A stretch of 64,000 nt of DNA from Mesostigma viride (lineage: Eukaryota; Streptophyta; Mesostigmatophyceae; Mesostigmatales; Mesostigmataceae), in the NCBI GenBank assembly GCA_009746045.1, contig RPFO01000406.1:2948872-3012871 (forward strand), read 5' to 3'. How positions within the stretch are numbered: position 1 is the first letter of the stretch; each line of letters opens with the position of its first letter. A model generated the notes under the pieces. The model was not told the DNA's origin and searched no databases. It was given only the letters and a program-made list of their open reading frames with translations. The position numbers and the translations under genes are program-made. Positions 4,311 to 58,359 of this stretch are shown piece after piece.

Positions 4311-4340
4311 CACCTGAATAGGGGAAATAGAATCAGACGA

Positions 4341-4408
4341 GACTAAGTAAGTAAGTAAATTACTAACTAAATAACTAACTTAATAACTAACTAAAGAACT
4401 AAATAACT
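4341..4408. repeat. TAAG/ACTAA microsatellite, unit 1
   Basis: Run of TAAGTAAGTAAG followed by degenerate ACTAACTAAATAACTAACT repeats. The same run is present in unit 3 (about 12530-12596) but not in unit 2. Confidence 0.8.
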
Positions 4409-19719: not shown

Positions 19720-22700
19720 ATGAAACTTTGGGGCCTGAATGACCTTTACCCGAAGATGGAGGTCGCGGAGAAAGACAAGGCTGAGGTGGATGCGCAAGAG
19801 ATCTTCATCTTCCCTGCGTAAGTGAGATTGTGGGTGGAAGTGATGAATGGAAGATGTTGTGGCAGGCGCGTTGTTCAAAGAATGAATGGGTGATTGATGT
19901 GTAAACAGAGGGAAACTTATTCATTTGTCAATGGATTTTCATATTTTTGACGTGTGCAGGGACACGCGGACGGCGGAACCGGCCGAGTTCCGTGTGGATT
20001 TTGTCAAGCGCAACGCGGATGGGGAGCAGCGGTACCGCCGGAGGTTGGTGATGGGGGACCAGAGGTACATGCCCCTAGCGTTCCCTGTGCTGTTTTCCGA
20101 GGGGGTCGGCTTGTGGTGGTACGGGCGTGGCGCGTCCAAGGATGGTTCAAGGTCGGAAAAACTGGGCAAGATTCTGAAGTATTGCCTGTACTCGGACGAG
20201 CGGTTTCGCAACAAGGGCACCTTGAGGCAATTGTTTGCGCTGCACGCATTTTCGTGCGTGCAAGACAACCGGTTGTCATATGTGCGTAGCATGCAGGAGG
20301 ACGTGCAGCTGCGCACTGCGACGGTGCGTGAGGCCGAGGATGCGTTGCGGCAGTTGGAGCAGCGCGAGAAGGAGGAGGACATTGACTACGATGCGGTGGA
20401 TGCGGGGGATGAGGTCCTTGATGAGCTGCGCGTGGGCAAGAAGGTCATCATTCCAGCAGGCGTGGGTTTTGGGGTTCGAGCGCGCGCCAGCCGTATCCAG
20501 GATCAGTTGGCGGCGATTGTCACGGATGGCGAGCCGAGTCACTTTGTGACGATGACTTGCAATCCTCGATGGAAAGAGATCTTGGATAACGTGCCGGCAA
20601 AACCGGATGGGACCAAAGAGCCGCTAGAGCATCCCGATATCGTGGATCGGGTGTTCAAACTGAAGTTGCGGTTCCTCATCTCCTTGATTACATCTGGGGT
20701 GGTCTTTGGGCGCAAGCCGGTGTATCTGACATACGTTATAGAATATCAGACCCGGGGATTGCCGCATGCTCATATCATCTACCGGCTCCCCAAGGTATGC
20801 CACCCTACGAACGAGAACGGGTTGGTGGATCAGCACGTATGGGCTGAGCTGCCCCCGGTCGAGATGCCCGAGTTGCGCGAGAAGGTTTTAACGCATATGG
20901 TGCACAATCATCATCGCGGCACCAAGTGCATGCAGGGTAGGCGGAAGGAGGTGGAGCAGCCTCCCAGGATGGCAGCGAGGGCTGCCGACGTGCGGGCGGA
21001 AGAGGCGGCGAGGAAGGAGTACGACGAGGGTCTGCCAGATTTGGAGGAGTGCGACGCGAATGTAACGTGGCCGGTTTGCCAAAAGAAGTTCCCCAAGGCG
21101 TACGTGGGTAGGACGTATGTGGACGCGCGCGGGTACATGCAGTATCGCCGGCGGCCCTTGTGCAAGCTGAACAGGTGGATTGTGCCATATAATCCCGTGT
21201 TTTTGCTACTGCTCGATTGTCACATCAATGTGGAGATCGTCGCCAGCATCCACATCGTCGAGTATCTGAACAAGTATATGAACAAGTCTGACGAGACGGC
21301 GGACGTCAAGGTGACGAGCGACGGCAATGACGAGATCGCGGACTACCTTGCCGCTAGGCGGGTGAGTCTTGGCGTGGGTGTTTGCATGGGTGGGTTCTAA
21401 ATCTATGTGGCACTCGGTGGAATGCTTGCTGTTTATGCGACGGTAATCATGTTGCTTGACGGTAGCGTTGGTGTTGATGCGTGCTTTGCGATTGTGGTTG
21501 CGGTGGTTGGGTGCAGGTGTCGGCGTCGCGGGCAGAGTGGGTGTTGATGGGTTTCCACGAGCATTTCATGCGTCCGGGATGCTCGTTGTTGCCGCTGCAC
21601 GTGCCCAAGGAGAACGAGATCGCGTATATGGAGAATGTAAAGGGGAGCATGGAAAAGGCGTTGCGGGAGCGGTCACACACGGAGCTTCAGGTCTACTTTG
21701 GGCGCCCCTCCGAGGAGGACCTTGCGGGCATGGATGCGATAAAGTATATCAAGTTCTACCGCACGTACTCTGTGCACAAGGCCAAGTCGGAGGATGAGGA
21801 GATGGTAAGAAGGAGGGTGTTGGTGGGGGCAATAGGTGTGTGTCGTGTCAGTGCTTGTGATGCATGGCAGCCTCTTCCCCCCCACATGCATGCATGGCCA
21901 CCACACCCATGCACACCCATGCATACCAGGCGCCCCCTTTACCCACGCACGCATGGCAGCCACCCTCATCTACATGTACATGCATGGCAGCTTTCCCCCA
22001 CACGCAAGCCAATTTTTTTTACCACCCTTGTGGTGCGGAAGCAATGCTGAATTTTTTTTAACACCCTTGGGGTGCGAAAGCTATGCTGAATTTTTTTAAC
22101 CACCCTTGGGGTGCGGAAGCTATGCTGAATTTTTTTCACCACCCTTGCGGTGCGGAAGCTATGCTGAATATTTTTCACCACCCTTGCGGTGCGGAAGCTA
22201 TGCTGAAATTTTCTTCACCACCCTTGGGGTGCGGAAGCTATGCTGAATTTTTTTCACCACCCTTGGGGTGCGGAAGCTATGCTGAATTTTTTTCACCACC
22301 TTTGCGGTGCGGAAGCTATGCTGAATTTTTTTCACCACCCTTGCGGTGCGGAAGCTATGCTGAAATTTTCTTCACCACCCTTGGGGTGCGGAAGCTATGC
22401 TGAATTTTTTTCACCACTCTTGCGGTGCGGGAGCTATGCTGAAATTTTCTTCACCACAGTTGGGGTGCGGAAGCTATGCTGAATTTTTTTCACCACCCTT
22501 GGGGTGCGGAAGCTGTGCTGAATTTTTTTCACCACGCTTGGGGTTTGGGAGCTATGCTAAAATTTTGTTCACCACCCTTGGGGTGCGGAAGCTATGCTGA
22601 AATTTTCTTAACCACCCTTGGGGTGCGAAAGCTATGCTGAATTTTTTTCACCACCCTTGCGGTGCGGAAGCTATGGTCAGGGCCGCATGAAGCTATGCTG

Positions 22701-25700
22701 AAATTTTCTTCACCGCCCTTGGGGTGCGGAAGCTATGCTGAATTTTTTTCACCACCCTTGCGGTGCGGGAGCTATGCTGAATTTTTTTCACCACCATTGG
22801 GGTGCGGAAGCTATGCTGAATTTTTTTCACCACCCTTGCGGTGCGGGAGCTATGCTGAATTCTTTCACCATTCTTGCGGTGCGGAAGCTATGCTGAAATT
22901 TTCTTCACCACCCTTGGGGTGCGGAAGCTATGCTGAATTTTTGTTAACCACCCTTCCAGTGCGGAAGCTATGCTGAAATTTTCTTCACCACAGTTGGGGT
23001 GCGGAAGCTATGCTGAATTTTCTTCACCACCCTTGCGGTGCGGGAGCTATGCTGAATTTTTTTCACCACTCTTGCGGTGCGGAAGCTATGCTGAATTTTT
23101 TTCACCACCCTTGGGGTGCGGAAGCTATGCTGAATTTTTTTCACCACCCTTGCGGTGCGGGAGCTATGCTGAATTTTTTTCACCACCTTTGCGGTGCGGA
23201 AGCTATGCTGAATTTTTTTCACCACCCTTGCGGTGCGGAAGCTATGCTGAAATTTTCTTCACCACCCTTGGGGTGCGGAAGCTATGCTGAATTTTTTTCA
23301 CCACTCTTGCGGTGCGGGAGCTATGCTGAAATTTTCTTCACCACAGTTGGGGTGCGGAAGCTATGCTGAATTTTTTTCACCACCCTTGGGGTGCGGAAGC
23401 TGTGCTGAATTTTTTTCACCACGCTTGGGGTTTGGGAGCTATGCTAAAATTTTGTTCACCACCCTTGGGGTGCGGAAGCTATGCTGAAATTTTCTTCACC
23501 ACCCTTGCGGTGCGGGAGCTATGCTGAATTTTTTTCACCACTCTTGCGGTGCGGAAGCTATGCTGAATTTTTTTCACCACCCTTGGGGTGCGGAAGCTAT
23601 GCTGAATTTTTTTCACCACCCTTGGGGTGCGGAAGCTATGCTGAATTTTTTTCACCACCTTTGCGGTGCGGAAGCTATGCTGAATTTTTTTCACCACCCT
23701 TGCGGTGCGGAAGCTATGCTGAAATTTTCTTCACCACCCTTGGGGTGCGGAAGCTATGCTGAATTTTTTTCACCACTCTTGCGGTGCGGGAGCTATGCTG
23801 AAATTTTCTTCACCAGAGTTGGGGTGCGGAAGCTATGCTGAATTTTTTTCACCACCCTTGGGGTGCGGAAGCTGTGCTGAATTTTTTTCACCACGCTTGG
23901 GGTTTGGGAGCTATGCTAAAATTTTGTTCACCACCCTTGGGGTGCGGAAGCTATGCTGAAATTTTCTTAACCACCCTTGGGGTGCGAAAGCTATGCTGAA
24001 TTTTTTTCACCACCCTTGCGGTGCGGAAGCTATGGTCAGGGCCGCATGAAGCTATGCTGAAATTTTCTTCACCGCCCTTGGGGTGCGGAAGCTATGCTGA
24101 ATTTTTTTCACCACCCTTGCGGTGCGGGAGCTATGCTGAATTTTTTTCACCACCATTGGGGTGCGGAAGCTATGCTGAATTTTTTTCACCACCCTTGCGG
24201 TGCGGGAGCTATGCTGAATTCTTTCACCATTCTTGCGGTGCGGAAGCTATGCTGAAATTTTCTTCACCACCCTTGGGGTGCGGAAGCTATGCTGAATTTT
24301 TGTTAACCACCCTTCCAGTGCGGAAGCTATGCTGAAATTTTCTTCACCACAGTTGGGGTGCGGAAGCAGTTGTGAGGGTAAGAATGCCACGAATTCCGCC
24401 ATGGTTCTTGCAGGAAGTTGCCTTTATTAACAATCAGGAAACACAGACGTAAGTCACGTCACTTCCAAGACTGCACGCAGCACAGACGACAGGGTCGCAG
24501 TGCCAAGAGAACGTGCACGCAAGAACTAGCGTCCCGGTGTGACCAAGTCACTCATATAGCTTACTAGGGACGCGTCCAAGTATTCAGCTGCACTGTCACA
24601 GCTGAACTGTCAATCAATTGATTACACAGACTCTGGCACGCCTTTGGCGCGCAGATCTATCAATTGTCCATACGGCTAGTCCTGTGGACCTATCCGTACA
24701 CTAGTCAGCATCAATTGTCTCATAGGTCCTGGCGCGCTACAGTGCGCCTACCTATCAATTGACCATCAAGTCCTGTACAAGTCCTGTCAACGTCCTGCGG
24801 ACTATCAAAGTGACACTTGTACATCCTGTGTCCGTACGCGCCCACAGTGGCGCGCCGGGTACTGTCGGCACAGCCTAGGAAACGTCATAACTTTTACGTT
24901 CCTTAACCAAATGAGGCGTTCAAGGTGCCGTTGGAAAGAGCGTAACAATCTCTATCCATCTAACGTAAATCCTTTACGTTAACTCCAATCCCTTCTTTTC
25001 TTTAGGGGTCACATCCCCTGCCAGGGACCCTTGAAGTAGCTTGAAATGTCCTTCACTCCAGCTTGAAGCTTGAACAGATGTCTTTAATGGCCAATGCCAT
25101 TCCCCCAGCCCTTTCTTTTAAGGAACTGGAAAAGAAACAGATCTGCCACAGGGAAAACCATTTCATGAGAAATGGAGAAAACCTATGGAAGTGGCATTAC
25201 AGAGTACCACCAGATATTAGAAGCACACAAAATTAAATACATACAGGTTAATTCTATGAGGTCTTCTCCAGGAATTAATCCCATCACCTCGGTAGAGCCT
25301 CCAGTACAATGACCTTCTGGCGGTGAGTTACATTAATCCCAGATACTAATCCCATAAAACCCAGTACATATTCAATATAAGTACAATAAATCCATGACAA
25401 TTAAAATACCACTTGACAAAGTAAGGCGTATTACAATAGTTTGCCTGTCATTCTCTCAACAGGGGTCTATTGGCGCCCGTCTTACGGCGCCCGTCTACTT
25501 GCCAGATGGTAAACTGCCACAGCAAACAAATGACAAAATGAAACACATAGGCAACAATTAAATCCTGCCCTGGGGAACTAGGGAAGTCTGAACAGGCAAA
25601 CACCTGAACAGGCCAGCTTGTAGAAACATAATACCAGGGAATCGAACCCCGCCCTATAAACCCCAGAATAAAGGTTCCCAGACCATTGTGAGAAGTATGT

Positions 25701-28700
25701 ACAAATATACATTTCTTTTAAAATAGAATACATGGTCTGTAATGGACCTGTCAACCTTGTGTAGTCAACAGCATGAACCCCAGCCAAAACCTGGCTGTAT
25801 CCTGATTAAAATCAGAGTGAGTGTACCATGGTCCATGAGCCTTAGTACAGACTAAAATACAGGTATTATGCCAGTCACAATGCTGACACTACCACACAAT
25901 CTGCTCTCCAATGCCCTATAACCATGCACCAGCTTAGACAGCTTGCTGAGATGGGTCCATCAGAGACTGAAGAACCTTGTATTGCACTGCTGCCTTCTGC
26001 ACTAGCTTGGTCAAAGCATCAGCAGGATTGTCAACCCCAGGGATATGCTCAATATTGGCCAAGGAGGACAACTCCTTAAGAAGGAGATAATCCAAGTCCC
26101 TACTTCTGGCCATCTGCCTGTGCACAAACTGCACCATCCCCATGGAGTCTGTTTTTAGAAGAGTGGTAACCTGAAGTGGCCAAGGAGTGTTAGAAGTCAT
26201 CTGATGAAGCAACTCCTTCAGATAAAGGCTTGTGTGAATGCCTTCACAAATAGCCCTGCATTCTGCCACATCACTGCTGACAGCCACCCGTTTGTGCAGG
26301 CGACTAAACCAGCTCACCAAACTCCCCAGGCCTTCCTGTCTGAGCACAAAGAGCCCTGCAGCCCTGCCCCTGACCTTGGAGACCTGCCTGCTGTCCATTG
26401 AGCTATCCACATACAGCTCCATGCAAATGGGTTGTGATAAATCCACTGCAGACAACAGAATGCCAGATGAAGCCCTGACCTGATCAGCCACCTTGGCAGA
26501 CCCTAGCTCCACCAGCATGTCATCAGGCAACCTGGCTATGACCATAAGGTCTGGCCTGGAAATGCCTGCCACCCAAGCAACCATGCCCCTCACCATGGGA
26601 CACAGTGCCTGTGTGATGGTTGGAGGAAGCTTGCTAATGAGGGTCTCTTGATAGTCATTGCCCCCCACCAGCAGCATACGCCACTCCCCTCCCTTCTTCA
26701 CCAGTGTGGCCTCCATGCCCACAAACAGCAGAGGCTCATTCTCCACCTGCCATTGCTCCCTACCCAGAGGAAACTTGGACTTAATGATGGAGATCAGCTC
26801 CTTAAGCCACGACGTGGGAGCTATCAGATGTAGGTCATCCCCGTGCAGCGAAGCATACACTGGCAGGCCTTCCCATTGCCCCAGAAACAGACAGGGGTCT
26901 ACAGGAGAGACCTTCAAGTTGCAATGCTCCTTCAGGAAACGGTTGAGAGTCTCCCTCCAGATTATTGGACTTGACCTCAGGCCCTCCAGGCCCTTGAGGA
27001 TTTTAAGGAACTCCGTGTGGATGTCCCTTTTCCATACAGCAGGCACCCTAACATAGAAAGGCGTCTTGCCCTCCCACTTTTCCTGTGCCACATCTGCATC
27101 ACCCTCCAGAAATGCCCTCTTGAAGTCTATCACCACTGAGCCATAGTCCAAGCCCTTGTTGAGAAGGCCTAGAAAGACACACAGCAGCAGCCTCCAAGTA
27201 TCATGCAGCATGCCAGGGGTATACAACTCCTCAGCAGTGCACTCACCAGTACCCTTGAACTCATTCAGCACTGGCCTGACATGTGGTACCTTGACCCCGT
27301 CCACCTCCTTCATCTTGATGACAAACTTGAGCTTGAGTAGACGTCGTGCAGGAGGCAGGTCATTGACAGGTTCCACGCATTTCTTGGAGATCCAGTCCTC
27401 CCCAGATTTAATCAGACCCAGTGTGACCTGGGGACACATAATGGGAGAGGACATGAGCTTCACCAGGCCTTGGTAGTTGATAGGGCTGTGTCCAGCAAGT
27501 GAGTGAGGACCAATGCCCAAACTGCTTGGATGACTAGCAGCTGGCAGTATGAGGTCATCAACCAAGGGCTCCTGCCCCTGGCACACTTGCACACGCTTAA
27601 CCGTCCTGGTTACTGCACGTGATAGGTGAGTGGTCCTGAAATTAATCAGTGGGACCTGACCAGCCCCTTCCTTAGTCAGGAGAGAGGACGTGATCACTAC
27701 CCCATCCTGGCATAGGAAATTCTGCCCCAGAAGAGCAGGTCCTTGATAGCCCTCCAAGACACAAAAAGCAGTGTCCTGTCCAAGGATAGGAATGAATACC
27801 TCACCCAGTACCTTCACGTGTACCCCGCCACTGAAGTCAGACACAAACTGATAGCTGGGTTCAGACATGCTGTACCCTGCTGCAGCCCTGGTCCCAATAA
27901 TGGAGACCTGAGAATTAGTGTCTACCTCTAAGGCAGTGTCCAGCCCCAGATTGCCATGCCACCTGAGCTTGGCTACCTTGGGCTGCTTCTTGGCCCTTTG
28001 TAGAGCCCCAATCAATCCAGCCAAACTTGTCCCCCTGGGCTTGGTTAGTGCCTTGGGCTTGACAGTTGACTCCCCAGCTGTTGACCTTGCAGCCTGTTCA
28101 ACAAGTACCTCTGCAACCTGGCCAGGGCTGACAGATTCCCCTGCAACAGATGTGGTCGTTGCGTCAGTGATGTCACCTGGGACCTGAAAATCCTGCAGAT
28201 CCTGTGAGCCTTGTGCCTGACTGCCCTCATTCATCAGGTTAGGCTTGACATATGACCAACTCAGCCGGTGTACATGCTTTGGTTCGTCCTCCATGCTGAC
28301 CAAGCATGCGTGGCTAGCTTCATCAACCTGGGTAACCACCCCAGGACTCCAGCTACCACGTTTGCCATAAAGGCTAGGTTCCTTCCAAGCTAGGACCTTC
28401 TGACCCACTTGTGGCTCCAGCATCTTCCAACCCCGGTCCTTCTCCCTCAGCTTGGCAAAGGTGACATGTGCAGCATGTTTCCAGCCCTCCAGCACATGTG
28501 GTGGGCACAGGCCATGATATAGACCCATTGGGCTGACAGCAACTCCATCATAGTAGAAGTTAACCCTGCTGTTCAGCTGCTGCTCCACGTTCCTCAGCCA
28601 TGCACTCCTGACAAGTGCAGGTGCAGACAAGGGTACCCAGTCTTCAGAGATGATCAATTTCTTGACCTCCTGGATTGCCCTCTCGATAGCACCCTGCTGC

Positions 28701-31700
28701 CCATGAGCCTCCCTAGGTGTAACCAGCAACTCAGGAAGGGTAGGATCACCCTTGAGATGCTGAAACTGCATGTCCACCTGGATCCTTGTGGTAGGAAACT
28801 TGGCTCTTACATTCTGCAGGGCAGCCAGCAAGTACCTGTTCTTCATAGAAGGTAAATGCTCCAGCACCTTGTATTTCGTGTACCTGTCCACGCACACCAA
28901 CAGTTGCATGCCCCTGATGTGTTGGATATCACACTGCAGATCACCAATGCTCTGAGGTAGAGCTTTGGCATGTGATTTCCTGGGCTTGTTGGAGGACAAC
29001 TGGCACTTACACCGTGAGGCAGCTTGCTGACACGCCTTAAGAAGGGGTGCCCTGCCCATACGGAAGGCAAAGTTGTTTGACAGAGAAGTGGCATGCCCAA
29101 ACATGTTGTGGATTCGGGCACCCAACTCCTGGTACACAGAGGAAGCAGTCCCTGGCACAGTCAGGACTGTGCTGTCAGGTTGTCCAGCATCACCATGCTG
29201 ACTTCCATCCTGTTCTGACTCAGAGCCTGAGTCACCCTGCTCATGCCCAACACCTGGACCGCCAGCAGGGACCACATGCATACCACCAGAGGCCTTCACA
29301 CCCCTCTGTGGTTGTACATTGGTTTCTCTCAAAATGAGAGGTCCACCCTCGTGCCCAGCACGAGGATGCATAGGGTCAGACATACTTACAGCTGCATCAG
29401 CTGTCAAGGACGTCTTCATAGGAACCTGTACCTCTCCAGGTGACCTGGGGCCACACTGAACCTGGAGATCACCCTCTTGTTGCCCAGATATAAAATCTGC
29501 ATTGGAGCACCTGGCCTCCCCCTTGGGTGAATTAAGGTGTGTAGGGGTTGCCTCAGACAGTCACTGCTCCTTGTTGTCTTCTTGCTGACTGCCCTTTGAA
29601 GGCTGGCCTGCCTGGGACTTGTTGTTGTTCTTCTTGTTGTTGTTGTTATTCTTGTTGCTGCCCTGGCCCTGGGACTTCTTGAAGCTGGGACACTCCTTCT
29701 TGATGTGCCCCCACCCCTTGCACAGGTAGCATTGTATCTTGGACTTGCCCTGGCCACTGCCCCCATTGTCAGACGCGTTGCCCTGCTTGGGCTGACCACC
29801 CACCCGCCTGAACACCGACTTGGAGTGTGACCTCCTGTCAGAATCAGGTGAATGATCTCCCTTGCGCTTGTGATGGTTGCCCCTACGCCCTCCTTGGCTT
29901 CGGTCAGCCTCAGACGTCTTGGAGCCACCCTGGGTACGCCCGCCTGCCTGGGTAGCCTTCACTGCTGGCACTCCACCCTCAAACAGCTCCTCTGCCTCGA
30001 GTGCTTGTTTGATGATGACCTTGTAGGCCTTCAGGGTAGAGTGTGGGGCACACATGACTTTTAAGGAGCCACGTGTCGCCTTATCCAGCCCAGAAACCTT
30101 GAGCCAGTTGGTTAGGGCTATGTTATCAGCGACATTAAAGCCGTGAGCCCTGCCCTCCTCAACCATCTTACAATAGTTGAGAAAGTTCTGGATCAGGTCC
30201 CCCTTGACCTCCCACCCTTGGTATTTGTCCTGCCAATGGATCCCCACTTCTTCCTCTGATCCTCCAGCAGCTCCTTCAGCTCAGCCACGTACAGTGCCCA
30301 GGCCTTATTGGCCTTTTTGCACTCCCTGGTTAGGTCCTTAATCTGGTCAGTACACTTGCCAAAAGTGCTACTGCCTATCCAGATTTGATAGTAATTTGTA
30401 CCACCGTACAAGCTAGGGAACCCTTCCAATCCCTCCACAAACTCTTCAGCCTGCTTAGGCTTGGAGTCTGAGGTTACAGGCTGCAACTGATTGACAATTA
30501 AAAGACCCTGTGTGGTAAGATCAAAGCCATGAATAGCTTGTGCATTATTATTATTGTGAGGAAGGTTGGTAATCTCTCCGGTAAGCCCCACGTCATCTAC
30601 GTGAGCGGTTCCACTACCAGCACCCCCATTATTATTCCCACTGGCTGGACCCTTGCTACGGCGTCCCTCAGCCATCCTGCACTACCAGCTATTCAAAGAA
30701 CACCTTAACGAAGCAGCAGAAAATATGTACAAAATTTTTGTGTCGCCTCTGCCGCCTGCGCCGGTGTCGCTGCCGCCCCCGCGAATTGCCGCCGAAATTC
30801 GACAAAAAAAATGTCGACAAGTACTGCAGAAGAAAATTAGGCCGACTAGTAGTCAAGGCCCCTGAAGTCGCAGTACGTGTATACGAACTCACGATCCTCC
30901 ATATCCAGCTCCGGACCTGCACCGGTATGAATTAAAACCGGCGTGCTCCCCGCCGCGTAAGTTGCGACGCGCCGACGCGCGACGAGGCGCAGAGGATGTG
31001 TAAAGATCGTCAATAATTCCCACCCCGCGGGAATCCACTCTCGCACAGAGGCGAGAAATGCCACCAGGTTAATTAAAACCTGGCGCTCGCGACTGCGTAC
31101 GCCGCGAGTGAGCAGCGATAACAGCGCGAGATCCTGAAACAAATTTGTCGACACCGCCGGCGCGCCCCCCGTGCGTAGCGATGCCCAGTTTTGCAGGTTT
31201 CTCTGGTAACCGGTGAGTGAAGAGAGGACGTTGTCCAACTCCTCAATGGCAGTCGTGACTTCGGTCACCGACCGCAAACCTCCCCGCACCTGGACCGTAA
31301 ATGTCGATAAAATGTTTCGAATCTGGTCCAACAGGTTGCGGATTGCCGGCACCAGTGCTGGCAAATCGGGGTCCTCGGGGTTATCCCCGAGCAATGCGTG
31401 AGCTGCACGCTGCTGACGATGAAGCTCGTCGAGCGAAACTGTAACTTCGTCGAGCAATTGTTGCCACGACGGCACAGTTGGTCTTGACGAAGAACCAGCC
31501 GGCGGAGCGGCTATTTCCTCATCGTCCGGAATCCGAAATTCTTCCGAATTTGGCATCTTTTTGACAGAGCGTGTAATACGAGTTGTGAGGGTAAGAATGC
31601 CACGAATTCCGCCATGGTTCTTGCAGGAAGTTGCCTTTATTAACAATCAGGAAACACAGACGTAAGTCACGTCACTTCCAAGACTGCACGCAGCACAGAC

Positions 31701-34700
31701 GACAGGGTCGCAGTGCCAAGAGAACGTGCACGCAAGAACTAGCGTCCCGGTGTGACCAAGTCACTCATATAGCTTACTAGGGACGCGTCCAAGTATTCAG
31801 CTGCACTGTCACAGCTGAACTGTCAATCAATTGATTACACAGACTCTGGCACGCCTTTGGCGCGCAGATCTATCAATTGTCCATACGGCTAGTCCTGTGG
31901 ACCTATCCGTACACTAGTCAGCATCAATTGTCTCATAGGTCCTGGCGCGCTACAGTGCGCCTACCTATCAATTGACCATCAAGTCCTGTACAAGTCCTGT
32001 CAACGTCCTGCGGACTATCAAAAGTGACACTTGTACATCCTGTGTCCGTACGCGCCCACAGTGGCGCGCCGGGTACTGTCGGCACAGCCTAGGAAACGTC
32101 ATAACTTTTACGTTCCTTAACCAAATGAGGCGTTCAAGGTGCCGTTGGAAAGAGCGTAACAATCTCTATCCATCTAACGTAAATCCTTTACGTTAACTGA
32201 AGCTATGCTGAATTTTCTTCACCACCCTTGCGGTGCGGGAGCTATGCTGAATTTTTTTCACCACTCTTGCGGTGCGGAAGCTATGCTGAATTTTTTTCAC
32301 CACCCTTGGGGTGCGGAAGCTATGCTGAATTTTTTTCACCACCCTTGCGGTGCGGGAGCTATGCTGAATTTTTTTCACCACCCTTGCGGTGCCGAAGCTA
32401 TGCTGAAATTTTCTTCACCACCCTTGGGGTGCGGAAGCTATGCTGAATTTTTTTCACCACCCTTGGGGTGCGGAAGCTATGCTGAATTTTTTTAACCACC
32501 CTTGCGGTGCGGAAGCTATGCTGAATTTTTTTCACCACCCTTGCGGTGCGGAAGCTATGCTGAAATTTTCTTCACCACCCTTGGGGTGCGGAAGCTATGC
32601 TGAATTTTTTTCACCACCCTTGGGGTGCGGAAGCTATGCTGAATTTTTTTCACCACCCTTGCGGTGCGGAAGCTATGCTGAATTTTTTTCACCACCCTTG
32701 CGGTGCGGAAGCTATGCTGAAATTTTCTTCACCACCCTTGGGGTGCGGAAGCTATGCTGAATTTTTTTCACCACCCTTGGGGTGCGGAAGCTATGCTGAA
32801 TTTTTTTAACCACCCTTGGGGTGCGGAAGCTATGCTGAATTTTTTTCACCACCCTTGCGATGCGGAAGCTATGCTGAAATTTTCTTCACCACCCTTGGGG
32901 TGCGGAAGCTATGCTGAATTTTTTTCACCACCCTTGCGGTGCGGGAGCTATGCTGAATTTTTTTCACCACCATTGGGGCGGGAAGCTATGCTGAATTTTT
33001 TTCACCACCCTTGCGGTGCGGAAGCTATGCTGAATTTTTTTCACCACGCTTGGGGTTCGCGAGCTATGCTGAATTTTGTTCACCACCCTTGGGGTGCGGA
33101 AGCTATGCTGAAATTTTCTTAACCACCCTTGGGGTGCGAAAGCTATGGTGAAATTTTCTTAACCACCCTTGGGGTGCGGAAGCTATGCTGAATTTTTGTT
33201 AACCACCCTTCCAGTGCGGAAGCTATGCTGAAATTTTCTTCACCACCCTTGCGGAAGCTATGGTGGGTTGCATGGTTTGTATGATGTGTGTGTTTTCTTC
33301 TATTCTGTCCGTGTGGCCGTACGTGTGTACGCACACATGGCAGGATGCGAGGAGAAAGGGCAAGGAGATCAAAGTGCCAAAGGACGCGCTAAGGAATGCT
33401 AATGGCGAGGTACGAATTTGTTTAGGGTGTTGTATTGCGAGCAACGACTTTGTTTATGCTTGATTGGATAGGTTGTTATTTGTGCGCATGTGTGAACCGC
33501 GGGGGTCGGCTAACGGTGTGCTAACAATTGTGCGAACGATGACTGCACTGCAGGTCATCTTCTGCGTCGTGGACACCCAGCGTGCCGACACGGAGAGCGA
33601 GTCAGGAGACCCGTCGCCCCCGCCACGCTACTACTTGAAGCTGCGCAAGAAGCGGCATTACGCGCGCATCTACATCGCGGACCTGAGGAAGCCGCAGTTA
33701 TTTTTTCTGCGCACGTTGTTGTTGAAGCGCGCGGGCCGGTCGTGGCAGGACTTGTGCACGGTGGATGGCGAGGTGCTGACGTATGAGGAGGCATGCCAGC
33801 GGTTACATTTGCTGGAGGATGATAACGAGGCGGTGGAGGCCATGCGCCAAGCGGTGGAAAGGAAGAGCGCGCCACCTTCGTTGCGACGATTGTTTTGCGT
33901 GCTGCTTCTGCAAAACATGGCGACACCCGAACAGCTTTGGAAGTTCCGCGACGACATGTGCGTTGATTACGTCGATAACGAGTACGCCAAGCGTTGCGGG
34001 GATGCGGCGCGGCCGGAAGGAATCACATTTGCGGACCGACAGCGGGCACTGGCGCGCTTGATGGATTATTTGGACAAGCGGTTGTGCGATCGGGGCGTGG
34101 ACGTGTGGGCGCTGGACCCGCAGCTCAAGGCGCGGCGTGACGCGGGGGAGGACGTGTTCGCGTTCGAGCAGCCACGACCGCACCGCGGGCCGCGGGCGTT
34201 TGTGGGCGACTTTTCCATGGAACAAACCCTCTCGTTTCAGACCATCATGCATGCTGTAAGAGGGGAGATCTCGCACCGGCGTTTTTTTGTGGACGGTCCA
34301 GCGGGTACAGGGAAGACGCGCGTGCTGAACGCGGTTGTGCAGCAGTGCAATCACGAGGGGCGCAATGTGGTGGCGATGGCGTTCACGGGCGTGGCGGCGA
34401 CGCAGGTGCGGGGGGGTCGCACGTCGCACCACTTTGCAGGGTTTCCGCTGGAGCTGGACACGGAAGCCGGGTGCGGGGTGCGCTTCGGTTCCGCCAAAGC
34501 AAAAGTGCTGATTGATGCGGACGTCATCATCTACGATGAGATCAGCATGGTCCACAAGGTGCACTTGCAGTTGTTGGACGCGCTGTTGCGGGACCTGTTA
34601 GGCTCCAAGGATGAGCCCTTTGGTGGGAAGGTGATGGTGTTTGCTGGGGACTTCCGCCAAGTGGCTCCGCCTGTGGGGGACAGCACTCGGGCGTGCGCGG

Positions 34701-37700
34701 CGAGCGTGGTGCGTTCGGACCTGTGGGTGGGCGTCAGGAAGCTCGCCTTGACTCGCAACTTTCGTTGCAATGAGGAGGTTTACAGTCAGATGTTGTTGGA
34801 CGTGGGCACGGATCGGATGCGGCGCATCAAGGTTGAGAACAAGAAGACGGGCCGGTTGGAGGCAATGGTGCCGTTGAAGATGGTCGAGAAGGTGGCGGAC
34901 GTGGATGAGCTCATCGAGTTCACGTTCCCGGACGTCAACGATACTGGTGCGTGCATGCGCTCATCAATCGTGACGGGCACGAATGCCGCGCGGCACGCCA
35001 TCAACGCAGCGGTATTGGCAAGGCTGCCTGGGGAGACGCACACCGCGAGAAGCCACGACTCCACCAATGATCCCCACAACAAGGCGCGCATCCCGCAAGA
35101 GTTCCTGAACGACGCGTGGGAGAGCGGCGTGCCCCAGCATGAGCTCAAGTGGAAGAAGAACGCCATCGCCATTATTACACGGAATTTGTCGCACAAGGAT
35201 GGCCTCTTGAACGGCACGCGGGTCGTGATCAAAGGGGCGACGGACAAGTTTATGGTCGTGCATACCTTGGATGAGAAGGAGCACCTCATCCCACGCATCA
35301 ACTTCTTCATGAAGGGCTACCCGGTGCGACGGAGGATGTTCCCACTAGAGGTACGTGCAAGCTAAGTATTTTGTTTGCTTTGCCACTGCGTTTTTAATTT
35401 TTTGTGCCCAAAATCTGTTTTTAACTAAAATCATGCGTGTGCTCGTGTGATTCGTGTCTGTGGATCGTTGTGCAGCTCGCATACGGTGTTACCGTGCACA
35501 AGTGCCAGGGGCAGACTCTACAACGTGTTGGGTTGGACTTGCGCACGGACATGTTTAGCCACGGCATGTTGTACACGGCGCTGAGCCGCGTCGGTGGCAA
35601 GGATTTGATTCGCGGGTTGTTCGCGCACGAGTTGGATGGGGTTGGCTGTAGCCCGAACGTTGTGCACCGCACCATCTTGGAAGGGGCAAAGCTGTTCAAA
35701 CAAGGTGACATGCCGGACCCGTTGTTTGCAGAGTTGCAGGAGCTGTACGCCCAGAGGGAGGTGGATGCTGTGGTGGAGGGCGAGGAGGGTTACGGTGACG
35801 TGGTTGACGACTACAAGACGTATGGGGAAGACGGTGATGACGATGGAGTCTTGCCGCCGCAGGGCGGCTTGGCCACTGATCACTGTCACGATGGGTTGGA
35901 CGAGGCGGTGCGTGAAAGGGAGTGGTTCATGGACTACGAGGAACCGATGTGGGGAAGGTTCATGAGGGATAAATATCCAGAGGACTTTGTGAATGACGAC
36001 GACTTTGGGAATACGTGCAGCGGGTCTGACGAGGAGCTCGGGTCTGAGCCTGAGTGGCCATCGGGATCCGACGTGAGCGTGGCGGATGACGACGAGGTAC
36101 GATAGCAGCATTTGGATGTTGTTGCGTGCTGTGGTATTGTGTTTCAGATCTTGCATTATTGGGGCTCTAATTTTTGTCTTGCTGCGTGGTCGCGATTGCG
36201 TGGACATCACGGTGACGCAGGCATCTTCCGTGTGGGGCGGCGCATCGCCTGGTGGCAGCGAGGGCAATCGCGATTCCGTGGGTTCAAGCGTTTGGGACAA
36301 CCTTGACCTTGGGAGCGATAGGATGGTACGTGTCGAGTCTTGCGTGCGGTTGCGTGTTTCCTTCATGCTTTATGAACCTGATATTGCATGCATATCAGAC
36401 AACTTAGCCATCTCGCCGATGTGCCATTTTTGCGTGTCGCCCTCACATGGCTTTCCGCAGGTCGACGCGCGCAGCGATGTCGCGTCGTCTCAGGTCAGCT
36501 GGGGGTCGCAATTATCGATCGGCGCGCCGGTGCTCGACATGTCTCACCTAGTCGAGTTAAAGAAGAACCTACGCGATCTGGACGCGGAAATGCGGGCGAG
36601 AGGCCTGGCAGAGTCCGCGGCCAAAAGTGCGGCGGCAGCGGTTCCGGCGACACCGGTCGCCACGCAAGATGATTCGCGGACAAGGGGCGACCAACAAACG
36701 GCGACTGGCGCGCCACGGGACGTTGCAGCTGCATCGCGTCCGAACAGCTCGCGGCAAACAACCGGTGCACGGACCACGTCTGCCGCGCGGCCTGGCGATG
36801 ATGGCGCAGCGAGTTCGTGCGGGTGCAAGGACTGCGCCATTTTTGAGGACCTGGTGGGTGCGTGCGGCGATTTGCTGCTGCCTGTAGGCCGCCAAGTCAC
36901 GTTCACGTGGGCGCGCAATAGCTGCCACTACGACGCTGCCCTTGAGTTTTTGTACGTGCTATTGCTTGCAACGCAAACTGCCACGCGCTCCGGGCTGCGT
37001 TCTTTGCTGTCGCGTCCGGCGGGTGTTGCCCACGGTGCGGCATGCAAAATCGGGGTCGAGCTGTTCAACGCGATGGCCGCCGCCGCGCGCGAGGACGGCA
37101 TTGGGATGACGGCGGCGAGGGAGAAACTGCGCAAGCTCCTTGATCCAACGATGGCTCGTCAAGCGGGGTCCATGCAATGCGCCCTAGAGGACGTGGAGCA
37201 CATGATGGGGTACGTGTCTCGAGGCCATCCACGGCTTGGGGAGCGTTCGTGCCATGTCCCACCGTTCTTTGACTTTGGCGCCGTTACGCTGCCATTGATG
37301 CTTTATGACCGCGACGATCACACAACCTTGGCTGCGCATATGGCATCTGCGTACCAGGAGTTTAAGGTTGTAAGGTGCCCTGAGGTTGATTGCACTGCCA
37401 GGTCCAACTGCAAACAAAAGGTGTATCTTCCGGAAGTGCCCCCGTTCCTTGCATTCGGTGGCATTTGGCAGATGCATTTGGATCGGGGGCGCAACGCATC
37501 GCCAGGGTTGCCAGAATCTCTACAAATGGTCGTCTCGGTCGGCGACGCGCGTGAACAGGTTCGCGTGAATGCGTGGCTCAGCGGGGTGTTGCGTAGGTCC
37601 GGCGGGGCCCATTTTCAACTGCTACGTCGGGCCGGCGTGGATACCCCGTGGGCACTGGTGGACGGCAACAAGCGCAATGACTGCGTCTTGCCTTGTTCTG

Positions 37701-38866
37701 CAAAAGACATGCAGCACTTGGCGTGGGACACCATTGCGTGCTGTTACGTTGTATCCGCAGTTCCGAGGTCATCACATGACTCACGCCAGGCCGCGCAAGC
37801 GGTGGGTGACGACCACGTGCACGATACAGATGATTTTTGCGTTCCTAACCCACCCGCGTCATGGGTGTACACTCCAGCGCGGGCCGAGTCAACTCCAAGT
37901 ACGGCCCATTGCAACGACTTCTCAGGCTTAGTAGGACGCTTTCGCTCAGGGCCGTTGCCCATGCGACGTCTTCTCATGGCTGATTGGGTCGGAAATAGTT
38001 GCCATGTCGATGCCGCATGGCATCTTTTCTATGATAGCGTGGCCTTAACACTTCTAGTTGGCACGCTTGTGTTATTAGATGTACTGCAGTGCAATCGCCT
38101 GAATGACAGGCATAGAGCCTCGTGTGCCATCGGTGTGCGCATGGTTGAGTACATCCATGCGCATGCTTTTGGCAATGTTTCTGACATGAACGCTGCGAGG
38201 CGCCTCTTACGTACACCATTAGATGCCACGGCAGACCGCGCTAACCATGCGGTTGGAGACGCGCGCCATAACCTATACCATTTCATGCAGCGATTCAAGT
38301 ATGCGCGATTGCGCCAAGGCGATTTCATGTGCCGCCAACCTTTTGGTACTGACGGAGAATTAGTGCACCCAATATCCATAGCGTTGGAATTGGGTGAAAA
38401 CATAGATATCAAAGAACGCATGATCATAGCCTGTACACGCCGGCCCGACCACGCCCCTTGTCCATATAACTGTGGCTGCGTCGGTTGCACACCTTTGCGT
38501 TACTTTGATCACGTGCCCCGTGTGCTGGTGTTTGGGAATGTACATGGCAATACGGTCGCTTTGCCTGTTCGTAATTACGCCGGTGAAGGGCTACCGACCA
38601 CCTTCCGGATGTCCATCTGGGTGGGTCGCGCTTGCCGGCCGGTCGCAATCGTAGCACACTTGTACGGGGTTCTTGAGTATCGTCCCAACCACTTTGTGTA
38701 TCTCCGTAGGTTTAATGGTGATGATGATTGGGAGGAGGTTGACCCCTACAAGGCGCACGCCCACCCCAACCATCCCAAACAATATCCATATGGTGGGAGA
38801 ATGGACCTCGTGAGCTTGGCAAAGAGCACAGTGGCATGCTTGTACCGCGTGACCATTGATGAGTGA
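19720..38866 (+). CDS. Helitron RepHel transposase with C-terminal tandem USP-like peptidases (8 exons)
   Basis: My exon model is 19720-19817, 19960-21361, 21517-21804, 33344-33409, 33554-35350, 35476-36096, 36221-36325 and 36461-38866. It totals 6,783 nt, or 2,260 aa plus stop. All junctions are GT-AG; the first is split within a codon and all others fall between codons, which strongly supports one gene. Domains: Rep nuclease (about residues 200-590), Pif1-type helicase (about 840-1290), an acidic linker, then two USP-like cysteine peptidase domains (about 1590-1900 and 1950-2260). The protein would nick, transfer and unwind DNA in rolling-circle transposition. The start codon is uncertain: ATG 19720 is the first plausible one, but coding may begin in an upstream leader exon. 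Intron 3 (21805-33343) is 11.5 kb because of satellite growth and a nested retrotransposon. Confidence 0.85.
19960..21804 (+). CDS. Helitron Rep (HUH-Y2 nuclease) exons
   Basis: These two exons encode the Helitron_like_N/Rep region. Visible motifs are FVTMTCNPRW (about 20544, Rep motif 1), GLPHAHIIYRL (about 20755) with the metal-binding H-x-H pair, and VEYLNKYMNK (about 21250) with the two catalytic tyrosines spaced as in other Helitrons. The intron at 21362-21516 falls right after DYLAARR. The next exon opens VSASRAEW, which matches the usual 'ARYVSACEA' continuation, so the splice is well supported. The second exon ends at 21804 before a GTAAGA donor. All catalytic residues appear present, so this part looks functional. 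Confidence 0.9.
21857..22010. repeat. Short 30-bp-type minisatellite inside Helitron intron 3
   Basis: CATGCATGGCAGCC and CCCACGCACGCATGGCAGCC units of the same family as the large arrays at 0.4-15 kb sit 50 bp inside the intron. They show that the Helitron and the tandem array share this satellite. Confidence 0.75.
22011..24367. repeat. 39-bp minisatellite with higher-order structure, left part
   Basis: About 60 tandem copies of a 39-40 bp unit that starts GCTATGCTGAATTTTTTT and continues CACCACCCTTGCGGTGCGGA. Variants include AAATTTTC for the T-run and CTTGGGG for CTTGCGG. Variants recur in fixed order: the block at 22397-22976 reappears at 23756-24335, an offset of 1,359 bp, including the rare marker GGTCAGGGCCGCAT at 22676 and 24035. 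A shorter version begins at 23284. The array lies entirely within intron 3 of the Helitron gene. ORFs on both strands are by-products of the 13-codon period. Confidence 0.9.
24368..24984 (-). repeat. 3' LTR of the copia-type element
   Basis: 617 bp. On the plus strand it begins AGTTGTGAGG and ends ACGTTAACT. It pairs with 31581-32198. A purine-rich tract on the minus strand (24985-25003, AAAGAAAAGAAGGGATTGG) immediately precedes it in element orientation and fits a polypurine tract for plus-strand priming. Confidence 0.93.
24985..25933 (-). other. 3' untranslated region of the copia-type element
   Basis: About 950 bp between the pol stop and the polypurine tract. I see no ORF of note and no repeat structure. 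Confidence 0.6.
25934..29560 (-). CDS. Copia-type Pol polyprotein (INT, PR-like, RT, RNase H)
   Basis: Open frame of 1,161 codons from ATG 29419; the same frame stays open back to the gag TGA at 29561-29563. Order from ATG: integrase (about residues 105-340: H-x4-H and C-rich finger, LQCDI about 160, VDMQF, AIERAIQEV about 247); protease-like domain (about 480-590: LEVDTNSQVSIIG and a later LLGQNFL); RT (about 690-950: VVIDFKRAFLEGD, GLRSSPIIW, catalytic box LHGDDL about 858); RNase H (about 1000-1130: ELYVDSSMDS, SSDVAECRAI, KTDSMGMVQF). The RT and RNase H are of Ty1/copia type. Oddities are protease after integrase, HGDD instead of YVDD, and DTN instead of DTG/DSG at the protease active site. 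The ORF is uninterrupted and probably intact. Confidence 0.88.
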   Translation of the reverse strand: MSEATPTHLNSPKGEARCSNADFISGQQEGDLQVQCGPRSPGEVQVPMKTSLTADAAVSMSDPMHPRAGHEGGPLILRETNVQPQRGVKASGGMHVVPAGGPGVGHEQGDSGSESEQDGSQHGDAGQPDSTVLTVPGTASSVYQELGARIHNMFGHATSLSNNFAFRMGRAPLLKACQQAASRCKCQLSSNKPRKSHAKALPQSIGDLQCDIQHIRGMQLLVCVDRYTKYKVLEHLPSMKNRYLLAALQNVRAKFPTTRIQVDMQFQHLKGDPTLPELLVTPREAHGQQGAIERAIQEVKKLIISEDWVPLSAPALVRSAWLRNVEQQLNSRVNFYYDGVAVSPMGLYHGLCPPHVLEGWKHAAHVTFAKLREKDRGWKMLEPQVGQKVLAWKEPSLYGKRGSWSPGVVTQVDEASHACLVSMEDEPKHVHRLSWSYVKPNLMNEGSQAQGSQDLQDFQVPGDITDATTTSVAGESVSPGQVAEVLVEQAARSTAGESTVKPKALTKPRGTSLAGLIGALQRAKKQPKVAKLRWHGNLGLDTALEVDTNSQVSIIGTRAAAGYSMSEPSYQFVSDFSGGVHVKVLGEVFIPILGQDTAFCVLEGYQGPALLGQNFLCQDGVVITSSLLTKEGAGQVPLINFRTTHLSRAVTRTVKRVQVCQGQEPLVDDLILPAASHPSSLGIGPHSLAGHSPINYQGLVKLMSSPIMCPQVTLGLIKSGEDWISKKCVEPVNDLPPARRLLKLKFVIKMKEVDGVKVPHVRPVLNEFKGTGECTAEELYTPGMLHDTWRLLLCVFLGLLNKGLDYGSVVIDFKRAFLEGDADVAQEKWEGKTPFYVRVPAVWKRDIHTEFLKILKGLEGLRSSPIIWRETLNRFLKEHCNLKVSPVDPCLFLGQWEGLPVYASLHGDDLHLIAPTSWLKELISIIKSKFPLGREQWQVENEPLLFVGMEATLVKKGGEWRMLLVGGNDYQETLISKLPPTITQALCPMVRGMVAWVAGISRPDLMVIARLPDDMLVELGSAKVADQVRASSGILLSAVDLSQPICMELYVDSSMDSRQVSKVRGRAAGLFVLRQEGLGSLVSWFSRLHKRVAVSSDVAECRAICEGIHTSLYLKELLHQMTSNTPWPLQVTTLLKTDSMGMVQFVHRQMARSRDLDYLLLKELSSLANIEHIPGVDNPADALTKLVQKAAVQYKVLQSLMDPSQQAV
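29561..30675 (-). CDS. Copia-type Gag, in two overlapping frames
   Basis: The first frame runs from ATG 30675 to a stop at 30193 (160 codons). The second is open from just upstream of 30247 to TGA at 29561. The two overlap by about 30 codons, and the switch is equivalent to -1. The second part contains a CCHC zinc knuckle, CYLCKGWGHIKKEC (C-x2-C-x4-H-x4-C), followed by an Asn/Lys-rich tail, as expected for nucleocapsid. The final TGA (context CAG TGA CTG) is in frame with pol. Gag would package element RNA. Whether the frame switch is programmed, a mutation or a sequencing error cannot be decided here; I see no classic slippery heptamer. Confidence 0.75.
30846..31556 (-). CDS. ORF0 of the copia-type element, unknown function
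   Basis: 236 codons, ATG at 31556, only 24 nt inside the LTR. I do not recognise a family. The N-terminal 25 residues are acidic and followed by Pro/Ser. The middle has heptad-like Leu/Ile spacing (LLDQIRNIL, ELDNVLSSL) that could form coiled coils. The C-terminal third is Leu-rich and Arg-rich. It precedes gag with a 170-nt gap and could be an unusual N-terminal gag segment or an accessory protein. Confidence 0.5.
   Translation of the reverse strand: MPNSEEFRIPDDEEIAAPPAGSSSRPTVPSWQQLLDEVTVSLDELHRQQRAAHALLGDNPEDPDLPALVPAIRNLLDQIRNILSTFTVQVRGGLRSVTEVTTAIEELDNVLSSLTGYQRNLQNWASLRTGGAPAVSTNLFQDLALLSLLTRGVRSRERQVLINLVAFLASVREWIPAGWELLTIFTHPLRLVARRRVATYAAGSTPVLIHTGAGPELDMEDREFVYTYCDFRGLDY
31581..32198 (-). 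repeat. 5' LTR of the copia-type element
   Basis: 618 bp, identical by eye to the other LTR apart from one extra A (ATCAAAAGTG versus ATCAAAGTG). In element orientation it is followed by CGTATTACACGCTCTG, which does not resemble the usual initiator-Met tRNA primer site. Confidence 0.93.
32199..33265. repeat. 39-bp minisatellite, right part
   Basis: About 27 further copies of the GCTATGCTGAATTTTTTT unit, continuing the array in phase from the retrotransposon target site. It degenerates near 33240 and ends about 80 bp before the exon at 33344. Confidence 0.9.
33554..36096 (+). CDS. Helitron Pif1-type helicase exons
   Basis: A 22-codon exon (33344-33409) leads into VIFCVVDTQRAD, the standard lead-in to the helicase. 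Motifs: Walker A GPAGTGKT (about 34298), Walker B IIYDEISM (about 34528), GDFRQVAPP (about 34648), LTRNFRCN (about 34750). After the intron at 35351-35475 come LAYGVTVHKCQGQTLQ and LYTALSRVGGKDL. The intron splits MFPLE from LAYGV exactly where other Helitrons read through. It is a 5'-3' SF1B DNA helicase that would unwind the donor strand during rolling-circle transposition. The tail after the helicase (about 35760-36096) is strongly acidic. All motifs look intact. Confidence 0.93.
36461..38866 (+). CDS. Tandem USP-like cysteine peptidase domains fused to the Helitron protein
   Basis: This last exon (802 codons including stop) contains two related domains. Domain 1: Cys box WARNSCHYDAAL (about 36900), a Cys-rich patch CPEVDCTARSNC (about 37378), LPEVPPFLAF, His box GGAHFQLLRR with WALVDG (about 37605-37665), and a closing CCYVVSAV. 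Domain 2: WVGNSCHVDAAW (about 37984), CPYNCGCVGC (about 38458), RPNHFVYLRRF with WEEVD (about 38685-38740), and a closing ACLYRV. The order Cys box, zinc-like patch, L-P-x-F strand, H-F/Y strand, W-x-x-V-D matches the ubiquitin-specific protease fold (family C19). Catalytic Cys and His candidates are present in both. Upstream is a low-complexity Ala/Thr/Arg linker and CGCKDC. Role unknown: deubiquitination or polyprotein processing are possible. Confidence 0.7.
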   Translation, partial: VDARSDVASSQVSWGSQLSIGAPVLDMSHLVELKKNLRDLDAEMRARGLAESAAKSAAAAVPATPVATQDDSRTRGDQQTATGAPRDVAAASRPNSSRQTTGARTTSAARPGDDGAASSCGCKDCAIFEDLVGACGDLLLPVGRQVTFTWARNSCHYDAALEFLYVLLLATQTATRSGLRSLLSRPAGVAHGAACKIGVELFNAMAAAAREDGIGMTAAREKLRKLLDPTMARQAGSMQCALEDVEHMMGYVSRGHPRLGERSCHVPPFFDFGAVTLPLMLYDRDDHTTLAAHMASAYQEFKVVRCPEVDCTARSNCKQKVYLPEVPPFLAFGGIWQMHLDRGRNASPGLPESLQMVVSVGDAREQVRVNAWLSGVLRRSGGAHFQLLRRAGVDTPWALVDGNKRNDCVLPCSAKDMQHLAWDTIACCYVVSAVPRSSHDSRQAAQAVGDDHVHDTDDFCVPNPPASWVYTPARAESTPSTAHCNDFSGLVGRFRSGPLPMRRLLMADWVGNSCHVDAAWHLFYDSVALTLLVGTLVLLDVLQCNRLNDRHRASCAIGVRMVEYIHAHAFGNVSDMNAARRLLRTPLDATADRANHAVGDARHNLYHFMQRFKYARLRQGDFMCRQPFGTDGELVHPISIALELGENIDIKERMIIACTRRPDHAPCPYNCGCVGCTPLRYFDHVPRVLVFGNVHGNTVALPVRNYAGEGLPTTFRMSIWVGRACRPVAIVAHLYGVLEYRPNHFVYLRRFNGDDDWEEVDPYKAHAHPNHPKQYPYGGRMDLVSLAKSTVACLYRVTIDE

Positions 38867-39454: not shown

Positions 39455-40943
39455 TCAAACAGAGGACCAATCAAAATCATCCCACTTGATGTCCTGGGCC
39501 TGCTTGTCGAGATCAGGGAAGAAGTAGTCCTTCGCGACCAGGAGGTACTGGGGCCCTTCCTTGGACCCGGGGGCGGCGGACGCGAACTGCGCCGGGCGGA
39601 CACGCAGGTGGAGGTTCGTCCATCGGTTGGACGAAAAGAAGTTTTCCCACAGCTGGGCGCGCTCCTTCGGGTCCATGTCAAGCCACTCGGTTGGCGTGAC
39701 GGGCGGGTCGCGAAGCATGGACGACACTCCGTCCGTGAACAGGGACACCTTGATGAAGTGGTTGGGATCTCGAATGTAGCATCCCCCGTGGAAAAACGGG
39801 CTGCCCTTCTGGTGTACCCCGGGGTGGTCAGTGCACACCCCGTCGACGAGGGCCTTGCGACACGTGCGGTTTGACGACCGCGCCTTTTGCACACAGCCAT
39901 AGTAAATGCACCGCTTTGGGTCATTATAGTGCTCGGCGGGGGTGAGCTGAGCCTCGCACGTCGCAGAAAAGGAGCCCGCTTTGAGGTCGCTCCACGCCTT
40001 GGCGCTGATGTCCACCAACGACATGACCGGAGATTCGTCGACGATGGCGATTCCTTTGTACTTGTCATCTTTGAGGGCATCGGCCTTCAAAGTTGCTGCG
40101 TCGCCGCCCACCACGTCGCTGGTGGTGACGTAAGCGGTGTTTCCCGCAGCCAGGGTCACATTCCCCTGGTAATACCCGAGCTTGGCGCCTTTGATGGCGA
40201 TGACCAGCGTGGCGCCTGCGTGCGCGTTGTCGACCACCGCCTGTTGGGCGTCGTCGAACAGAATGACCGAAATGGTGGCGGCCGTCGCAGCCGTGGAAGA
40301 GTCCGCAAGGATGATGCGTGTCCGCGACGTCTTGGCCGATGCCTTCGGTCGGTAAATGGCGTTCACCAGACCAAAGACATCCACGGAGGCCTTAACGTGG
40401 CCATTGGCGACCGGGATCTTCTTTTCCAGCGCTTTGAACGGCGTGAAGTCGAACGGCATCGTGAAGTTGCCTCCATCGATGGGCGTGTCAACCAGACGCA
40501 TGTTGTTGCCATTCCGCAAGTGGAGTGTAAACCTGCGCCCAAGAACAACAATGCACACAATAACGAGAATAAGTTAGTCAAGAAGGCAAAGAAATAGATA
40601 TATGTTGGTCGTCTCCTTGAGATAGTGATGCACAAGCTGTATATGAAGAACAAGGAATGCGATTTGGGATTGCTACCTACCCAGAAGCACTCCAAGTACA
40701 TGGTGTCCGCGTGTTGGTCACAAACTGAGCATGCTGGCCCACGGGGAAGGTCTCCTTGCCAACGTCCAGCCCGTTCTGGCGACGAAAGTCATCCACGTTG
40801 GCAATGACGGTGTGGGCCTTCCCGTTTTTGTCCACAACGATGATGTGGTATGCGTGCAAGTTGCGGCCTGAGGGGGGAGTATACATGCCGACGTGCATGA
40901 TCTTGCCAGCGAGGCGGTAGATCTGCGATGCCGGTGTCGCCAT
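39455..40943 (-). CDS. RPA1-like single-strand DNA-binding protein (Helitron-associated)
   Basis: Two exons: 40943-40681 and 40532-39455 (GT-AG intron, split glycine codon, frame preserved), 446 aa. Exon 1 resembles the first OB fold of the RPA large subunit (IYRLAGKIMHVGMYTPPSG, HIIVVDKNGKAHTVIANVDD). Exon 2 has a second OB-like region (VANGHVKASVDVFGLVNAI, ISVILFDD near residues 185-200). A Cys-containing third region follows (CIYYGC ... RTCRK ... DGVC), matching the zinc-bearing DBD-C of RPA70. A splice acceptor (TTTCACAG) just upstream of ATG 40943 implies a 5' untranslated exon ending near 41061. Many plant Helitrons carry RPA1-like genes, and this one converges on the RepHel gene, so it is probably part of the element, protecting single-stranded intermediates. 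Confidence 0.75.
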
Positions 40944-57948: not shown

Positions 57949-58359
57949 TACTACACACGTGTCTGCACGCGAGACTTGTTCAGCGGGTTATATACATACG
58001 ACTGGCTATAGATATTGTTTCCGCATTCCCCGCCTCCCCCGCTTGTGGGGTACGTGTAAGGCTGGACCATCTACGCTGCTCCTCACAGGTCTTTGGCACC
58101 ATTGCGTGATAAGCTGGAGTTCCTCAAGCAACACAAGCGGCTTGGTGCAGGGACCTCCTACACGCTGGACGACGACTTGACCATGGCGCAGCGACGGGAG
58201 CTCTGGCCGACGTACCTACCTCCAGCTCCGGCAAGCAGCAGGGAAGAAGCCGGTTTACTGGAGGGGGCGGGCTGCCATCTACGTCGACCACAAGCCATGG
58301 CAGCTAGGTGCAACAATGTACCCCAGCAACCCGCCAAGGGGAAACATATAAGTGTAGCA
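57949..58359. other. Short spacer, no gene supported
   Basis: About 410 bp. A 91-codon ORF (58093-58368) ends in the adjacent microsatellite and resembles nothing I recognise. Confidence 0.4.

Follow-up and report, generated by a model that had tools for sequence, protein, structure and literature searches.

A tandem of predicted USP-fold peptidase domains behind the helicase of a Helitron in Mesostigma viride

What would a rolling-circle transposon gain from a pair of cysteine peptidase domains? This question is raised by a 64,000-nucleotide stretch of Mesostigma viride DNA (contig RPFO01000406.1; referred to here as the window), in which the last exon of a Helitron contains two such candidate domains, D1 and D2. 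We consider it likely that this exon forms the C-terminal part of the RepHel transposase, and that D1 and D2 are cysteine peptidases with the fold of ubiquitin-specific proteases (USPs), most likely deubiquitinases (or enzymes specific for a ubiquitin-like protein) that would act in cis and protect the transposase. All copies, families and counts given below come from one genome (G000; M. viride contigs).

Two homologous domains behind a Helitron helicase

As the initial annotation had described, positions 36461-38866 form a single open frame of 801 amino acids plus stop, and all of the proposed motifs were found in it: the Cys boxes NSCHYDAAL and NSCHVDAAW, Cys patches in both halves, and the His boxes AHFQLLRR...WALVDG and NHFVYLRR...WEEVD. 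Its claim that they represent two copies of one domain was borne out. BLASTP aligned D1 with D2 over ∼330 residues with 29% identity (E 8e-22), and their Smith-Waterman score of 219 compares with a maximum of 67 in 2000 shuffles (mean 34.2, standard deviation 5.0). Judged by sequence, D1 and D2 are thus true homologues. These names denote live domains, and P1 and P2 denote inactive ones; in the window exon the two live domains were the only ones found, and none of the P1/P2 type was seen there.

The element upstream has the hallmarks of a Helitron, as far as sequence motifs tell. Its Rep exon, matched by Helitron_like_N, carries GLPHAHIIYR and EYLNKYMNK, which we take to be the HUH-like and the two-Tyr motif, respectively, and a PIF1-type superfamily 1 helicase is encoded downstream (Table 1). 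The AP endonuclease that marks Helentrons was not detected, with no endonuclease model matching the helicase open reading frames (ORFs) or the last exon at E ≤ 1. Helitrons start with TC, end in CTRR with a hairpin, and insert between A and T; the match between the window and its copy on contig C1468 continues to the end of the fetched C1468 locus.

The introns between the five exons from 33344 to 38866 all have GTACG...GCAG ends and lie in phase 0. This applies to introns 36097-36220 and 36326-36460, through which the last exon would be joined in phase to the helicase, as had been proposed. The proposal gains further support from a diverged copy, L009 (contig C1912), in which the last intron measures 142 bp compared with 135 bp in the window and the phase-0 boundary between M and (V/F)DARSD is nevertheless retained. 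This is as splicing requires, since an unspliced change of this length would break the frame. Further downstream, before its D1, the L009 copy is frameshifted.

Predicted fold and catalytic residues

The domain alignment comprised 17 rows, 12 active and 5 inactive. With this family alignment, AlphaFold2 produced a model of D2 whose nearest listed folds were USPs; cellular USPs ranked first in Foldseek as well as in VIA, giant-virus USPs led the viral list, and coronaviral papain-like proteases were also near the top in Foldseek. This outcome hinges on the family alignment, since a run with just two rows, of which D1 was the first, yielded no fold (pLDDT 35), and D1's own model was poor. Structure prediction, which the initial annotation had suggested as a check, agreed with a USP-like fold for D2. 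Six VIA-listed entries have a mutated Cys in their titles, presumably the catalytic one; counted without gaps from the alignment start, it falls on D2 residue 46 in three entries and on residues 45, 48 and 49 in the rest.

Among the active rows, 20 ungapped columns were invariant, including C46, H276 and D293, while the inactive rows had lost the Cys in five of five cases and the His in four. All three columns were covered in 46 of the 97 domain matches in fetched loci, many of which are near-copies from recent copying and not independent; 43 of these read C/H/D and three G/H/D. Each window domain, as aligned, holds an intact Cys-His-Asp set. The ratio of nonsynonymous to synonymous substitution rates (dN/dS) was below 0.5 in six of nine active-domain pairs, and 0.46-0.74 in three inactive-domain pairs. 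The predicted D2 fold and the conserved order of Cys, His and Asp thus argue for the USP-like cysteine peptidases that had been postulated. The assignment to USPs combines the predicted fold of D2 with the ordered residues; the cut-off of the family model was not reached.

Cys156 was invariant in all 17 rows, with a later Cys cluster present, a pattern that does not clearly make up the two CxxC pairs forming the zinc site of USP fingers. No OTU model matched the last exon or the domain rows, although HMMER filters may drop weak matches. Likewise, no VTD structure appeared among the 50 rows of the Foldseek and VIA lists, which leaves room for kinship with VTDs. No relatives emerged when viral and prokaryote contigs were scanned with D2, with the D1/D2 alignments, with the helicase or with the far group described below.

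Several weak matches were dismissed, namely those of query P0001 in NCBIfam (E 0.018 or worse), those of single domains in Pfam (Peptidase_C71, Cyclase, Herpes_heli_pri and others; E ≥ 0.025, at most 2 of the 17 rows each), and a 22-residue chance match to viral contig L001.

Distribution of the array and neighboring elements

We counted an array as linked to Rep if it followed the Rep place on the same strand at a distance of up to 20 kb; the 38 array places and 39 far-group places are those listed in the genome scan. The genome contains 55 Helitron_like_N places, 19 of which were followed by part of the array. At 18 of these D1 or D2 was present, and the remaining one, C244, had only a P1 stretch at a contig edge. 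Conversely, 19 of the listed array places, C244 among them, had a Rep upstream, and a helicase was also found upstream of D in 12 of the 20 fetched loci. At 36 Rep places no array was found; three of them (C253, C481 and C1448:124274) fall in the score band of the array-bearing Reps, with only 6.4 kb of contig left downstream in C481 and 3.7 kb in C1448:124274. Because the scores of the remaining 33 lie above or below this band, the trait seems, on Rep sequence scores, to belong to one Helitron lineage.

In the divergent families L022 and L024, live and dead domains alternate, with P1, D1, P2 and D2 in one frame; L010 has the same arrangement over two frames. The inactive domains, which lack the catalytic Cys, span 3813-4727 and 6315-7262 in L022 and 4612-5502 and 6652-7494 in L024. 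P1 is closest to P2 (E 5e-19), followed by D2 (5e-6) and D1 (0.002). The tree grouped P1 with P2 (100/100) and the D2 domains with one another (89/98), D1 not being resolved as a single group. The divergence of the domains from one another thus seems to predate that of these Helitron families.

A single domain of this kind, at 26-32% identity, occurs at the far-group places, and for none of them was a Rep place found up to 20 kb away. Among five loci fetched from this group (L045 to L049), Cys, His and Asp were present in four, the Asp column not being covered in L046. In the tree the group stands on a long branch beside D1 of L022 (94/92), and it may represent a domesticated or separately mobile descendant, possibly of Helitron D1. 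At L049 (contig C1624, 940-5496), a minisatellite repeating MGVMGCWHAW lies upstream of the far-group domain in a shared stop-to-stop frame.

Within the window, a recent Copia-like insertion in the 39-bp minisatellite separates the Rep and helicase exons. It would be absent from the C1468 copy, where the Rep-to-D distance is 6.8 kb compared with 15.7 kb in the window. The RPA-like ORF has a copy at L003 (99.7% over 303 amino acids) and another at L005 (43% over 315 amino acids), both again downstream of D2 on the opposite strand; it found no PDB match at E ≤ 1. Because it is kept beside the L005 copy at this level of divergence, it is probably part of the same Helitron.

Elsewhere in the window, a 30-bp minisatellite (ACCCACGCACGCATGCCAGCC...) recurs with roughly the same unit in four arrays, at positions 379-1692, 5513-6828, 9823-11144 and 13702-15021, each 1.3 kb long, with starts 3.9-5.1 kb apart. 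The pentamer ATTAA is repeated ∼80 times at 58359-58758 (98% matches). An integrase with H2C2, rve, SH3 and chromo domains on the reverse strand (62497-63936) presumably belongs to a chromovirus-type Gypsy element.

Table 1. Positions of the Helitron parts and adjacent elements in the window (LTR, long terminal repeat)
Feature	Position	Strand	Remarks
Rep exon	19925..21400	+	Helitron_like_N at 20177-20782, PF14214 E 1.6e-31; place recovered in genome-wide scan
39-bp minisatellite in intron, left part	22011..24367		TRF
Young Copia-like LTR retrotransposon in minisatellite	24368..32198	-	LTRs 618 bp, 99.8% alike; 5-bp duplication GAAGC; RVT_2 E 3.9e-6, under cut-off
39-bp minisatellite, right part	32199..33254		TRF
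Small exon ahead of helicase	33344..33409	+	Phase 0
Helicase exon (PIF1, Pif1_2B)	33554..35350	+	PF05970 E 1.2e-45 on ORF 33464-35365; GTACG/GCAG boundaries
Helicase C-terminal exon	35476..36096	+	Phase 0, 207 codons, stop-free; UvrD_C_2 E 0.0017, under cut-off
Linker exon	36221..36325	+	35 codons, phase 0
Last exon	36461..38866	+	801 amino acids + stop; linker + two predicted USP-fold domains
D1	36797..37768	+	Candidate Cys43 (36923-36925), His272 (37610-37612), Asp289 (37661-37663)
D2	37865..38863	+	Candidate Cys46 (38000-38002), His276 (38690-38692), Asp293 (38741-38743); model and fold matches
RPA-like ORF	39455..40558	-	REPA_OB_2 E 9e-4, below cut-off; downstream of D2, opposite strand

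Possible function and relation to known systems

The initial annotation had proposed that the domains counter host ubiquitin control, and this is the reading that we favor as likely, given the predicted fold, the triad and the linkage to Rep. After splicing, RepHel would carry D1 and D2 at its C-terminal tail, where they would remove ubiquitin, or a ubiquitin-like protein, in cis from RepHel and its surroundings. RepHel would thereby be spared ubiquitin-dependent destruction or chromatin control while at work, and the transposase could meanwhile act together with the helicase and the RPA-like protein. This proposal draws on direct analogy with VTD domains of zebrafish Helitrons (DrT1, DrT2), which cleave ubiquitin chains in vitro and which, as their authors suggest, shield transposition proteins from the proteasome (PMC9741609, in excerpt).

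Several observations weigh against this interpretation. For the D2 model, Foldseek TM-scores were moderate (0.34-0.50) and the root mean square deviations in VIA amounted to 4.0-5.5 Å. None of the 17 rows matched UCH or UCH_1, the Pfam families that the initial annotation had named for comparison, at E ≤ 10, and none of the 35 UCH/UCH_1 places in the genome overlapped the 45 listed places of the domain family. Compared with the human USP2 profile, the active rows scored 15.4, a value that 74 of 300 shuffles attained and that is not significant, though their best local alignment pairs His276 with the His of USP2 and Asp293 with its FND box. Using all 17 rows raised the score to 23.2 (probability 2.2%, E 0.022), a value obtained without a shuffle control. 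Three of the nine active-domain pairs had dN/dS values of 0.75, 0.89 and 1.29, all with dS ≤ 0.053. As to linkage, no Rep was found upstream of 19 of the 38 listed array places, and C253, as far as seen, is a true exception, with no array in the 18.7 kb downstream of its Rep.

Among other explanations, a ubiquitin-like target, for instance SUMO, which is the target of the USP-fold enzyme USPL1, is conceivable though rather doubtful: USPL1 was not the best match in VIA, where the top ubiquitin USPs exceeded it by up to 2 Z units, and the fold does not decide specificity. (We take the corresponding MEROPS labels to be C19 for USPs and C98 for USPL1.) We regard it as unlikely that the 36461 exon forms a gene of its own that merely travels with the Helitron. 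A Met codon at 36539 could serve as its start, and in L024 the long domain frame begins ∼2 kb past the last recognized helicase segment; the splice sites, however, are in phase 0 throughout, the altered L009 intron preserves both phase and boundary residues, and by eye the Met at 36539 corresponds to Glu in L009.

About equally unlikely, or slightly more so, is that the proteases process the long RepHel polypeptide into Rep/helicase and protease parts, in the manner of viral papain-like proteases. Such coronaviral enzymes do rank near the top of the D2 folds, and viral deubiquitinases often cut polyproteins as well (PMC9741609, in excerpt), but the lists are headed by cellular and giant-virus USPs. 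That the domains are a decayed, functionless fragment of a captured host gene appears very improbable. Helitrons do capture gene pieces (PMC6431247, in excerpt), and some copies are frameshifted or contain stops; nevertheless, the live pair and its triad are kept across families only 30-40% identical, most active pairs have low dN/dS as given above, and the window and C1468 copies are open through both domains.

A cis-acting, protective deubiquitinase pair thus remains our preferred explanation. More tentatively, and with less than even likelihood, this Helitron lineage may have given rise to a separate USP-fold family, with no recognizable sequence kinship to cellular USPs and elaborated into a dead/live array, from which one live domain escaped and founded the stand-alone family, much as VTDs did in animals. 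The live domains would then cut ubiquitin chains, and our guess is that the dead ones would bind them. Beside the VTD and OTU domains carried by some animal Helitrons and Helentrons (excerpts of PMC9741609 and PMC4067079), a third deubiquitinase fold, paired and elaborated into live/dead arrays, would argue that rolling-circle transposition is generally held in check by ubiquitin control. The domains provide a protein set for a direct test of that barrier and a predicted USP-fold family that escapes standard profiles.

The tandem pair had been considered undescribed in RepHel proteins, and indeed searches that covered PubMed Central papers under open licence brought up no Helitron with a USP-fold pair; the accessory Helitron domains known by 2014, in the excerpted list of PMC4289320, include none. 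A single mention of a protist protein combining transposase_11 with Peptidase C19 (PMC2836005, in excerpt) likewise ties a USP-type domain to a transposase, but one of another class. Cellular USPs (USP14, USP46, USP12, USP2) and USPL1 share the predicted fold and have their Cys, His and Asp elements in the same order, but show no significant sequence similarity to the window domains, which sit in a transposon. OTU proteases of Helitrons and Helentrons are also deubiquitinase-type cysteine proteases, found alongside RPA ORFs (excerpts of PMC4067079, PMC6431247 and PMC2836005), but belong to another family. Closest in arrangement are the VTDs of animal Helentrons, papain-like deubiquitinases inside the rolling-circle ORF, with two in DrT1 and with inactive and domesticated relatives (PMC9741609, in excerpt). 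Unlike the window domains, VTDs form their own family and accompany an AP endonuclease, whereas here the nearest listed folds are USPs, no AP endonuclease was recognized, and some families alternate live with dead domains. Helitrons or Helentrons were thus already known to carry OTU or VTD domains, a pair of VTDs in a single element, and RPA ORFs.
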